IMG/VR virus record: IMGVR_UViG_3300020056_001913
Location: 1-31,987 of that record
Direction: 5' to 3' (one strand)
Source of the DNA: a virus
Length of the DNA stretch: 31,987 nt
How positions within the stretch are numbered: the first letter of the stretch is position 1; every line of letters starts with the position of its first letter. A model generated the notes under the pieces. That model did not search any database. It was not told the DNA's origin and saw only the letters and a list, made by a program, of their open reading frames with translations. Below, in pieces: positions 28,221-31,987 of this stretch. Both the position numbers and the translations under genes were made by a program.

Positions 28221-29564
28221 ATGTCTGAGACAAACTATCAAAAGCTTGTGGAAAAGTGGGGGCCAATCCTTGAGCACGAATCTTTTTCACCTATTGCTGA
28301 TCAACACCGCAGATCTGTAACTGCGACTATCTTGGAGAACACTGAAAAAGCTCTTCAGGAGTCTGGTGACCTTTCTGCTAACATGAGCTCTCTGCTTTCA
28401 GAAGCTCCTCTTAACCAAGTGGGAACTACTGGTGGATTTACATCTGGTTCTGCTGATGCAGGTCCTGGTGCAGGTTACGATCCAGTACTGATTTCTCTTG
28501 TACGTCGCGCAATGCCAAATCTGATTGCATATGACATCTGTGGCGTCCAGCCAATGACTGGTCCTACAGGTCTCATCTTTGCAATGCGATCTCGTAAGTC
28601 TGCCCAACTCGGTGCAGAAACTGGATACGCTGAAGCAGATACTTCATTCTCTGGTACAGGTACTCACACCGGCACGATCGCTGTTGCTGATGCTGCTAAT
28701 ACTACTCTCTTCGAGACTGGTACTGGTATGACTACAGCCGCTGGTGAAGATCTCGGTGATGGCGGTACTTTCGCAGAAATGGCCTTCTCTATCGAGAAAG
28801 TAACTGTTGCTGCTAAGACACGTGCACTGAAGGCTGAGTACACCACTGAATTGGCACAAGACCTGAAAGCAGTTCATGGTCTGGATGCCGAGACTGAGCT
28901 GGCTAACATCCTCCAGTCTGAGATCCTTACTGAAATCAACCGTGAAGTGGTACGTACTATTTACACCACTGCTGAGGTTGGTGCAGGTAACACCGCTTCT
29001 GCTGGTGTATTTGATCTCGACGTTGATGCTAACGGCCGCTGGTCTGTAGAGAAGTTTAAGGGCTTGATGTTCCAAGTTGAGCAAGAAGCGAATGCAATTG
29101 CTAAGGCTACTCGCCGCGGTAAGGGTAACATCGTAATCTGCTCTTCTGACGTGGCTTCTGCCCTTCAGATGGCTGGTGTACTGGATCACACTCCAGCACT
29201 CAACAGCAACGCTCTGGAAGTTGATGACACAGGTAACACCTTCGCTGGTGTACTGAATGGTCGCTTCAGAGTCTACATTGACCCATATGCAGGTTCTAAC
29301 TACATGGTTGTAGGTTACAAGGGTTCTAGCGCATTCGATGCTGGCCTCTTCTACTGCCCATACGTACCTCTGCAGATGGTCCGTGCAGTTGGTGAGAACA
29401 CTTTCCAACCGAAAATCGGATTTAAGACTCGCTACGGCATGGTTGCTAACCCCTTCGCTGAAGGTCAAGCAACTGCTAACAATGCTGCTGGCCAAGGTCT
29501 TGGTGCTCTTACAGCTAACGTTAACAAGTACTACCGTAAGGTACGCGTCACTAACTTGTTCTAA
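28221..29564 (+). CDS. 23: Major capsid protein gp23
   Basis: 447 residues (T4: 521). LVEKWGPILEHESFSPIADQ at the N-terminus, PVLISLVRRAMPNLIAYDIC, GVQPMTGPTGLIFAMRSRK and the C-terminal IGFKTRYGMVANPF are the classic gp23 signatures used to type T4-like phages. The predicted maturation cut is after Glu61 in SLLSEAPLNQ (Leu-Ser-Glu, then Ala), equivalent to the T4 cut after residue 65. The protein forms the HK97-type hexamer lattice. Codon choice is richer in G/C-ending codons than the neighbours, which suits high expression. A strong terminator follows. Confidence 0.97.
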   Translation: MSETNYQKLVEKWGPILEHESFSPIADQHRRSVTATILENTEKALQESGDLSANMSSLLSEAPLNQVGTTGGFTSGSADAGPGAGYDPVLISLVRRAMPNLIAYDICGVQPMTGPTGLIFAMRSRKSAQLGAETGYAEADTSFSGTGTHTGTIAVADAANTTLFETGTGMTTAAGEDLGDGGTFAEMAFSIEKVTVAAKTRALKAEYTTELAQDLKAVHGLDAETELANILQSEILTEINREVVRTIYTTAEVGAGNTASAGVFDLDVDANGRWSVEKFKGLMFQVEQEANAIAKATRRGKGNIVICSSDVASALQMAGVLDHTPALNSNALEVDDTGNTFAGVLNGRFRVYIDPYAGSNYMVVGYKGSSAFDAGLFYCPYVPLQMVRAVGENTFQPKIGFKTRYGMVANPFAEGQATANNAAGQGLGALTANVNKYYRKVRVTNLF

Positions 29565-29594: not shown

Positions 29595-29596
29595 TG

Positions 29597-29624
29597 AGGG
29601 AGGCCTTGTGCCTCCCTTTTTTTT
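29597..29624 (+). terminator. Rho-independent terminator after gp23
   Basis: An eight-pair stem AGGGAGGC / GCCTCCCT with loop CTTGT is followed by a run of eight T (29617-29624). This is the strongest terminator in the window and ends the head-gene transcripts. Confidence 0.92.
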
Positions 29625-29680
29625 AACATAACCTTTACTGAAATGTCATTAAAAATTAATGGTAGGGGTGTCTTTGTAGC

Positions 29681-29688
29681 GATAAATA
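29681..29688 (+). promoter_or_regulatory. Late promoter-like -10 site, variant GATAAATA
   Basis: GATAAATA differs in one base from the late consensus and lies 83 bases before the ATG at 29771. A sigma-70-like TATAAT at 29703-29708 lacks a convincing -35 box, so the late-type site is the better candidate. Confidence 0.45.
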
Positions 29689-29712: not shown

Positions 29713-29744
29713 CCCCGCCAGTTTGACTGACGGGGATTTTTTTT
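29713..29744 (+). terminator. Terminator hairpin inside the TonB receptor leader (possible attenuator)
   Basis: CCCCGCCAG pairs with CTGACGGGG across a TTTGA loop, with one C-A mismatch, and is followed by A and eight T. It lies downstream of the only promoter-like sites and upstream of the receptor gene, so it would stop most transcripts before the gene unless read through. Confidence 0.85.
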
Positions 29745-29770
29745 GGAATTTACAAAGAGGACCCCCACAT

Positions 29771-31987
29771 ATGAAATATCTCTTATCCCTTCTATTATTA
29801 GTCCCGATTCTAGGATTTGCAGAAGTCCACTATAATCGGAATGAACTCCCTCAACTTAACGCACAAATCTTAGAAGCATCAGAATTTGCAGATCGTATCG
29901 AAGCTACAATGGTACCCGTCGCAAAGCTCAAGCCTGTACAAACTCAACGTGTTAAAGACTTAGTCAAGCACGAAAAGCGACTCATTAAAGTCCAACAAGA
30001 TACCTATAGACCTTTAGTCATCGATCATGATTATTACATCATTGATGGGCACCACCGATATGATGCACTTACCGAAATGGGTGTAGAAATGGCAAGAGTG
30101 CTACTTGTTCATGCAAACATCAAAGATGTAGTTGACTCTTTTCAAGAATATCGTGACGATACACCAACATATGAACCAATGGAAGAAATTCGAGTATACG
30201 GCTCTCGTGCCAATCTTATTAATGCTGTTGATAAGCAAATGATGGCAGATAACATTATCTCAGTTGTCGATTCAGATGCACTAGGTAACTTCCCAGATAC
30301 TACTGCGGCAGACGCAGTTCGTCGCTTGTCTGGTATCAATGTAGAGAATGATCAGGGTGAAGGTCGTTATATTACCATTCGTGGATTGTCCTCTGACCTT
30401 AATGCAGTGTCAGTAAATGGGGCTTCAATGGTGGCACCTGAGAATGGACGCTCAGTGATCATGGATGGCATTCCAACCGAACTTCTGGATAGTATTACCG
30501 TAGCGAAGTCTTTAGTGCCTGAGATGGATGCTGATAGCATCGGAGGGCGGGTTGAATTCAATACGAAAAAAGCAACTGAACTTGACGATCGTTTATTCAA
30601 TATTAAGCTTGCCACAAAATGGAGCGAGAAAGATGATAAGCAAATGCCTAACGCTTCTATCATCTATGGTGATTTCATTACAGATAACGTAGCTCATATC
30701 GCAGGTCTTACCTACTCATCTCGTCGTATCATTTCCCACAATAACGAAACTGGCTTTGGCTGGGAAGATGGGTTAATGAATGACGACTACGAAATGAGAT
30801 GGTATGATGTTGAGCGAGAGCGTTATGGCTTTAGCTATGACATTGCCTATGATACAGGAACGACCGTATATTATGCAAACGTTCTCCATAATCAATACGA
30901 TGAAACCGAAACTCGATTTAAGAATGAGTACGGTAAGATCAAAAATACTGGTGCTGAATTTGATAATGCAGTCGAGTCTTCTCGTGTACGCCACGACGTA
31001 GAAACAAAGCAACGTTACGAAACTCGTACAATTAGCGCAGCTTCAATTGGATTCGAACACCTTGGTAGCGTAACAATTGATGGTCAACTTTCTTTTTCAA
31101 GAGCAGAAGAAGATGACTCGGATAATGCTGACATTACTTTCCGTAACTATGACAAAGACTTTGGTGCTTTGTTTGATTGGTCTAATCCACGCCTTCCTAC
31201 TGTAACTGCTTATGATCCAGGCCTTCGTGATCCAGCAAACCTCGAGTTTGATGCTTTCGAAACATGGTCAAATGTCAGCCAAGACGAAGAAGTAGCGGCT
31301 CAGCTCAACTTTGAGTTTGATACAAGTTTCGGTATGATTAAGACTGGTGTCAAGTATCGAGATCGTACTAAGGAAGTTGATGACTACATCATTGGTTATA
31401 CATGGGATCGTACTCTTGCAGACTTCGACTCATCTGCACCTGATTGGATCTGGGATCATCAAACATTAGGTCCACACCTTTCGGGCGCAGACACTTATGA
31501 CCTACTCAATTATGTAGATCAAATGGAGTTTGATTTTGAAGACGATCTCAGCAGGGACTTTACTACTGACGAGCGTATCATGGCGGCATATATTCAAGAT
31601 ACGGTTGACTTTGAAAATGGTACAATCATCTTTGGTGTTCGCTATGAAACGACAGAGTTCGAGTCTCAGGCATATAACCAAGACGGTGAGCTTGTATTTG
31701 CAGAGAATGATTACTCGTTCCTTGCACCTAACTTGACTGTGAAGTACTTCTTGACTGACAACCTTCAGGTTCGTGGTGCTCTTTGGCGTGGACTTTCTCG
31801 CCCAGGCTTTAAGGAAACTGCACCAAAGACTTCGGTTGATGTAGACACCTCTGGTGATACTACAGGTTCGGTCGGTAATCCAGATCTACAACCTTATGAA
31901 GCAGATAACTTTGACATTTCGCTTGAGTACTATGGTGATGGAATGACATTCGCTTCAGTCGGTTTCTTCTATAAGAACATTGCAAAT
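29771..31987 (+). CDS. Secreted ParB-like domain fused to TonB-dependent outer-membrane receptor (3' end outside window)
   Basis: The frame is open from the ATG (AAAGAGG ten bases upstream) to the window end: 739 residues. Residues 1-17 (MKYLLSLLLLVPILGFA) are a signal peptide with an Ala cleavage site. Residues about 40-130 look like a ParB/sulfiredoxin-type domain: VPVAKLKPVQ, then YRPLVIDHDYYIIDGHHRYDAL with DGHHR at 92-96. Residues about 138-146 (EEIRVYGSR) resemble a TonB box. The plug follows with DAVRRLSGINVENDQGEGRY, ITIRGLSSDLNAVSVNGA and LVPEMDADSIGGRVEFNTKK, the pattern of the proteobacterial TIGR01782-like receptors. Beta-barrel strands fill the rest (for example IIFGVRYETTEF, YSFLAPNLTVKYFLTDNLQV). 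Related receptors run to 850-1000 residues, so perhaps 100-250 are missing. The ligand is unknown; the class often takes up oligosaccharides. Confidence 0.85.
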   Translation, partial: MKYLLSLLLLVPILGFAEVHYNRNELPQLNAQILEASEFADRIEATMVPVAKLKPVQTQRVKDLVKHEKRLIKVQQDTYRPLVIDHDYYIIDGHHRYDALTEMGVEMARVLLVHANIKDVVDSFQEYRDDTPTYEPMEEIRVYGSRANLINAVDKQMMADNIISVVDSDALGNFPDTTAADAVRRLSGINVENDQGEGRYITIRGLSSDLNAVSVNGASMVAPENGRSVIMDGIPTELLDSITVAKSLVPEMDADSIGGRVEFNTKKATELDDRLFNIKLATKWSEKDDKQMPNASIIYGDFITDNVAHIAGLTYSSRRIISHNNETGFGWEDGLMNDDYEMRWYDVERERYGFSYDIAYDTGTTVYYANVLHNQYDETETRFKNEYGKIKNTGAEFDNAVESSRVRHDVETKQRYETRTISAASIGFEHLGSVTIDGQLSFSRAEEDDSDNADITFRNYDKDFGALFDWSNPRLPTVTAYDPGLRDPANLEFDAFETWSNVSQDEEVAAQLNFEFDTSFGMIKTGVKYRDRTKEVDDYIIGYTWDRTLADFDSSAPDWIWDHQTLGPHLSGADTYDLLNYVDQMEFDFEDDLSRDFTTDERIMAAYIQDTVDFENGTIIFGVRYETTEFESQAYNQDGELVFAENDYSFLAPNLTVKYFLTDNLQVRGALWRGLSRPGFKETAPKTSVDVDTSGDTTGSVGNPDLQPYEADNFDISLEYYGDGMTFASVGFFYKNIAN

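Follow-up and report, generated by a model that had tools for sequence, protein, structure and literature searches.

We found a gene for a bacterial-type TonB-dependent outer-membrane receptor in a set of coastal, T4-like viruses. Of the roles that the original prediction had left open (superinfection exclusion, feeding, and trapping of competitors), feeding is favored, specifically with phosphorus, and exclusion is less supported. This preference comes from the phytase and phosphatase linkage of the bacterial relatives, the Pho-box-like arrays upstream, the conserved TonB box, and the lack of diversifying selection on the loops. The gene is probably a PhoB-inducible phage auxiliary metabolic gene for phosphorus that keeps organophosphate import going during infection.

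Phage residence of the receptor gene

The stretch analysed, hereafter the window, is an IMG/VR virus record of 31,987 bases. The receptor ORF starts with an ATG at 29771 and stays open for 739 codons, up to position 31987, where the contig ends. Pfam matched the protein to Plug (E 2e-14) and to the TonB barrel (E 7e-23), both above cut-off, and Pfam and PHROG matches placed gp20, the prohead protease gp21, the scaffold gp22, and gp23 ahead of the gene in this order. A phage-encoded TonB-dependent receptor directly behind gp23, as the original prediction had it, is therefore present in the window. Its description as near-complete also fits, since 739 of 926 codons are seen and the full gene exists in the related contig L002. 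The features of the region are as follows.

28221..29564, + strand: gp23 major capsid protein (PF07068, E 2e-144), which marks the contig as T4-like
29596..29626, + strand: intrinsic terminator after gp23 (z -3.75)
29621..29660, + strand: Pho-box-like array of 7-bp units with an 11-bp period, TTTTAAC-N4-CCTTTAC-N4-ATGTCAT-N4-AATTAAT (the 4-unit score has p 0.002 compared with shuffled sequences and ranks second in the window; supported by a control of the period)
29713..29744, + strand: a further hairpin that resembles a terminator, with a U-run, shortly before the receptor's ribosome-binding site, with which the U-run is predicted to pair
29771..31987, + strand: TonB-dependent receptor gene, cut by the contig end (739/926 codons; Pfam Plug and TonB_dep_Rec_b-barrel; complete homologue in L002)
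29771..29824, + strand: Sec signal peptide MKYLLSLLLLVPILGFAE, read from the sequence; cleavage probably after GFA
29825..30175, + strand: ParB/sulfiredoxin-fold domain with the motif YIIDGHHR, predicted to be periplasmic (PF08857 sub-threshold, PHROG ParB, AlphaFold and Foldseek)
30179..30208, + strand: TonB-box-like segment MEEIRVYGSR, residues 137-146 (sequence; the TIGR01782 match begins at residue 137)
30242..30547, + strand: plug domain PF07715, residues 158-259 (Pfam)
31112..31987, + strand: beta-barrel part matched by PF00593 (Pfam; the contig end cuts the match)

The window stops inside the gene, as misassemblies often do, and a chimeric join near gp23 had been named as a danger. However, counting the window, ten contigs from different metagenomes share the junction, and T4-type head genes precede it. 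L002 and L003, which come from metagenomes other than that of the window, run across the gp23-receptor junction in just the same way as the window, differing from it at 16 of 6534 and 8 of 6918 ungapped bases, respectively, and seven more contigs keep the same order. The gene also lies in other T4-like contexts in L033 and L149, and in phage contigs the complete gene ends before further genes. A chimeric assembly was rejected because independent contigs reproduce the junction, and an assembly artefact, or a piece of a bacterial contig taken for phage, can practically be dismissed. The receptor gene is real and phage-borne.

The first scan of IMG/VR recovered ten related contigs. The expectation that the gene would follow gp23 in related phages held for nine of them and the window, but not for L033, L148, and L149. 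The last is a 160-kb T4-like contig with a DNA polymerase close by. Later scans added L032 and L033 (66-67%) and L148-L151 (61-65%), bringing the total to 16 IMG/VR contigs besides the window, with contigs of 160 and 170 kb among the carriers. Complete receptors of 926-929 residues were found in L002, L004, L005, L006, and L008; the L002 copy extends to its end, with 926 aa and a stop, and has a canonical C-terminal beta-strand (...VIGVDFKL). Such complete copies in close phage relatives agree with the claim of an intact gene that is no chance insertion. A search of 50,697 deposited phage records gave matches to the receptor in just three contigs, all from the gut and unannotated, at 24-28% identity. 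With its bacterial ancestry, its residence on T4-like contigs including those of 160-170 kb, and its place outside virion and replication needs, the gene has the character of a phage auxiliary metabolic gene.

Several other genes were noted on these contigs. A convergent gene for a reprolysin-like metalloprotease lipoprotein (HEAGHLLGLQHEW) stands directly behind the receptor in L002 (7095-7919, -), L005 (6222-7871, -), and L006 (12781-14430, -), and other genes stand in its place in L004/L011; with this identity, a phosphatase was ruled out for the convergent gene. Small secreted proteins of ~95 residues that look alike are encoded in L132 (10657-10950, -) and L149 (8383-8661, -); the L149 gene converges on the receptor gene, and upstream of the L132 gene lies a Pho-box-like match that is among the best of its genome. 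A NifU/IscU-like iron-sulfur scaffold gene is present on the phages L007 (16158-16541, -) and L149 (13888-14277, +), and a serine hydroxymethyltransferase gene in the T4-like phages L151 (5722-6867, Pfam) and L129 (4065, by eye). Curli genes (csgF, csgG, and amyloid-repeat-like ones) are present at 5769-7796 of L150, a phage-type contig whose receptor lacks the ParB domain.

Domain architecture of the receptor

A signal peptide (MKYLLSLLLLVPILGFA) is visible by eye at the N-terminus, and the signal peptide, TonB box, and terminal beta-strand of a TonB-dependent receptor can all be read in the alignments. NCBIfam TIGR01782 (TonB-Xanth-Caul) matched a full-length copy with 451 bits against a cut-off of 310, covering profile positions 1-867 of 868. 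Within the TonB-box-like segment (EExxVxGS), E138, E139, V142, G144, S145, and R146 are invariant in five phage copies. The full L002 model (pLDDT 81.5) contains a complete barrel, predicted to start at about residue 275, and was matched by Foldseek to TonB receptors such as PfeA and PhuR. A PDB sequence search with the receptor returned chance matrixin matches only. The phage receptor would take up its ligand in a TonB-driven manner. The signal peptide, TonB-box-like segment, plug, and barrel strands described in the original prediction are all present in the sequence and Pfam matches; what it overlooked is the ParB-like domain.

This ParB/sulfiredoxin-fold domain covers approximately residues 19-135, between the signal peptide and the TonB box. 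It was modelled by AlphaFold with a pLDDT of 91, and Foldseek matched the predicted structure to pNOB8-like ParB-N (E 7e-6) and also to sulfiredoxin, ParB/Noc, and the free serine kinase SerK. Its matches in a viral library were phage ParB/sulfiredoxin proteins, and the domain is frequent in marine phages. The GHHR/GxxR phosphate-binding motif is present, with DGHHR conserved in the alignment. The domain can be aligned with free-standing phage proteins that have no signal peptide (ParBc_2-like), with which it shares the pattern PQ...Q...YIIDGHHR, the fold, and the motif; its best relatives are other marine phage proteins. Some of the free-standing proteins are joined to nucleotidyltransferases, whereas in the receptor gene a signal peptide precedes the domain and an outer-membrane receptor follows it. 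In all eight phage types with the fusion, the protein starts with a signal-peptide-like segment, different in sequence each time. As a side observation, this domain recurs in fusions with a variety of phage proteins, for example a nucleotidyltransferase (L061 5547-6572, other loci L041-L088), and is a widely shuffled module.

None of the bacterial receptor homologues found matches the ParB part, which is absent from two phage copies, L148 and L150, too. The receptor tree rejected a single clade of ParB-fused copies (p-AU 1e-8), indicating that the domain was lost or exchanged. Between L002 and L004, dS was 1.36 for the ParB part and 0.45 for the receptor, indicating domain exchange. The domain may perhaps bind phosphate or nucleotides in the periplasm. 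A composite importer could also be imagined, in which the periplasmic ParB-fold domain on a captured phytate receptor would bind or process the incoming phosphorylated ligand or gate TonB, so that the infected cell would exploit organic phosphate more effectively than the uninfected cell does; we regard this as rather doubtful.

Ancestry and phosphorus context

A tree of 50 receptors grouped the phage copies in one clade (89/84), sister to the bacterial L099, inside a Porticoccaceae/SAR92-type group. The nearest bacterial proteins are L099, with about 62% identity, and those of SAR92, with 57-58%. When L148-L150 were added, the phage copies and L099 intermixed, and a single clade of all phage copies was neither shown nor rejected (p-AU 0.07). 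Overall, the phage copies nest among Porticoccaceae TonB receptors.

The bacterial relatives are closely linked to phosphorus enzymes. A beta-propeller phytase adjoins 17 of 17 bacterial homologues in a genome scan and lies within 1.5 kb of 24 of 29 further homologues (294 genomes, one order), the phytase identity being confirmed by Pfam PF02333 in three lineages. Counting phytase and other phosphorus enzymes together, 45 of the 46 homologues examined are linked. Among the five homologues without phytase, L099 (locus L128) adjoins an alkaline phosphatase and L104 (locus L141) a purple acid phosphatase. L105 and L106 (loci L142 and L143) stand in clusters with inositol monophosphatase, PhoD, iolG/E/D/C, and a UhpC/GlpT-like transporter, as read by family scan for L105 and by gene order for L106; at the fifth, L111, there is a contig edge. 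No phytase lies near L097 and L098, which are the second-best TonB receptors in the same genomes. A phytase-adjoining TBDT in Citromicrobium (PMC3400609) and the phytase-linked TBDT Fjoh_1368 in Flavobacterium (PMC8115612) have been described, and such receptors were independently tied to phytate and low-phosphate induction (PMC3400609, PMC8115612).

The phage receptor groups in the tree with receptors encoded next to phytase. It shares with these bacterial receptors (TIGR01782) a homologous plug and barrel and a TonB box, with 57-62% identity to the Porticoccaceae-type copies. The bacterial receptors have their own Pho-box-like sites and phytase neighbors, whereas the phage receptor is phage-borne, has no adjoining phytase gene, and in eight types carries the ParB/sulfiredoxin domain before the TonB box. 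Since phytase adjoins only the bacterial relatives, we treat the phage gene as a relative, not a full member, of the phytase-linked group. No phytase (PF02333) was found on any of 11 phage contigs, so the pathway would need host enzymes. PhoH is present on only two of five phage records, indicating that other phosphorus genes are not general in these phages.

The genomic context suggests that the phage receptor may bind phytate. Considering that L099 stands beside an alkaline phosphatase, the ligand could be another organophosphate. More broadly, the receptor might import a different nutrient altogether (an iron chelate, a sugar, or another organophosphate), with the phytase linkage merely ancestral. 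TIGR01782 is a broad subfamily, mostly carbohydrate-associated, the neighbor of L099 is not a phytase, and there is a weak kinship, general in kind, to siderophore receptors. However, the phosphorus linkage of nearly all homologues and the Pho-box-like array upstream of the phage gene make this unlikely.

Upstream region of the receptor gene

The Pho-box matrix was built from E. coli half-sites known from the literature. The 4-unit p value was ≤0.004 in the window, L005/6, L032, and L033, 0.026 in L008, and 0.05 in L004; these seven phage loci amount to six distinct ones, and the values are optimistic, because the arrays were spotted by eye before testing. Bacterial receptor operons carry Pho-box-like sites, and a matrix trained on these operons alone gave p values of 0.004-0.10 in the first seven phage loci. 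The summed Pho score was +32 at a period of 11 and -48 to -75 at every other period from 7 to 17. In three later loci, the 4-unit test was not significant, and the 2-unit p values were 0.015 (L150), 0.043 (L149), and 0.85 (L148); an exact repeat of TCTTAAC at 11 bp is nevertheless present in L148. In L032 and L150, TTGTAAC repeats are followed by a TATAAT-like hexamer at about 10 bp. Cyanophage genes under host PhoBR control have been reported, and the authors caution that box prediction alone is unreliable in phages (PMC10976474). As far as sequence can tell, the phage receptor may be controlled by PhoB through the putative array.

A terminator-like hairpin is located between the Pho-box-like array and the start codon, which counts against PhoB-inducible phosphorus import, the reading that we prefer. 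Hairpins of differing sequence are found at the same place in L004, L005/L006, and L008. Pairing of the U-run with the ribosome-binding site (29713-29760 in the window) was predicted in L005 and L008 as well.

The exact T4 late-promoter motif TATAAATA occurs at nine sites in the window between 3175 and 28181, all on the + strand and 37-108 bases before a gene, against a chance mean of 2.3. A T4 late promoter for the receptor was rejected, as the exact motif is absent before it, though present ahead of head and tail genes. A version with one mismatch, GATAAATA, lies at 29681 and is not conserved in other phages.

Selection and proposed role in the infected cell

The receptor of the window-type phages has an omega of about 0.04, indicating strong purifying selection; dS is saturated between more distant receptor pairs. 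No sequence window with pN/pS > 1 and no diversifying loops were found in these phages. Arg and Lys occupy 16 of 60 invariant positions, compared with 8% of residues, an excess that fits an anionic ligand.

These results bear on superinfection exclusion, in which the surface would be flooded with a modified receptor closed to rivals, or the host phage receptor would be replaced. TonB receptors commonly serve phages as receptors, and the gene lies within the structural region in nine contigs and the window. However, the TonB box and plug are kept in all copies, which is unnecessary for a decoy, the loops show no diversifying windows, and the kinship to phytase-linked receptors and the Pho-box-like control suit nutrition better. 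Exclusion is thus a possible function without specific support, and we consider it distinctly unlikely.

For phosphorus import, the following course can be proposed. T4-like phages would have captured a TonB-dependent receptor that is paired with beta-propeller phytase in bacteria, their host being probably a marine Porticoccaceae or similar gammaproteobacterium, and most copies carry a phage ParB/sulfiredoxin-fold domain between the signal peptide and the TonB box. In a phosphate-starved infected cell, host PhoB may activate the gene via the Pho-box-like array. The receptor would then be exported, folded into the outer membrane, and powered by host TonB-ExbBD, and it would import phytate or other inositol phosphates, from which host periplasmic phytase and phosphatases could free phosphate for phage DNA. 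The phage copy may in this way substitute for a host receptor that is no longer made after the shutdown of host expression. We infer the substrate (probably phytate or inositol phosphate), the timing, the benefit, and the host identity in this scheme.

Discussion

Phosphorus limits marine phage production, and the known phage phosphorus genes (PstS, PhoA) work inside the outer membrane, on inorganic or simple phosphate. Phage phosphorus-acquisition genes as such are known. A phage-borne organophosphate receptor of the outer membrane, and the joining of such a receptor to a ParB-fold domain that is exported, appear to be new: no description of a phage TonB receptor was found in the open-access literature searched, which is weak evidence of absence. 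Like pstS, phoA, phoH, and the PhoB-controlled cyanophage genes (PMC10976474), the receptor is a host-derived gene of phosphorus acquisition with upstream Pho-box-like sites and T4-like carriers, and it is likewise proposed to relieve the limits that phosphate sets on phage production. In contrast to PstS, a periplasmic binding protein for inorganic phosphate, the receptor would have organic phosphate as its substrate and the outer membrane as its site of action.

With its exported ParB-fold domain, the receptor seems to have a new domain arrangement, and the activity of that domain is open to assay. If the composite importer were real, it would be the first nutrient gate of the outer membrane known from a phage, with a ParB-fold domain active outside the cytoplasm. 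If the phosphorus role is true, a phage-borne organic-phosphate receptor would widen the phosphorus pool open to infected cells, and a non-cyanobacterial phage would be using host PhoB sensing. It would also give a testable tie, in coastal bacteria, of viral yield to organic phosphorus of the phytate type.
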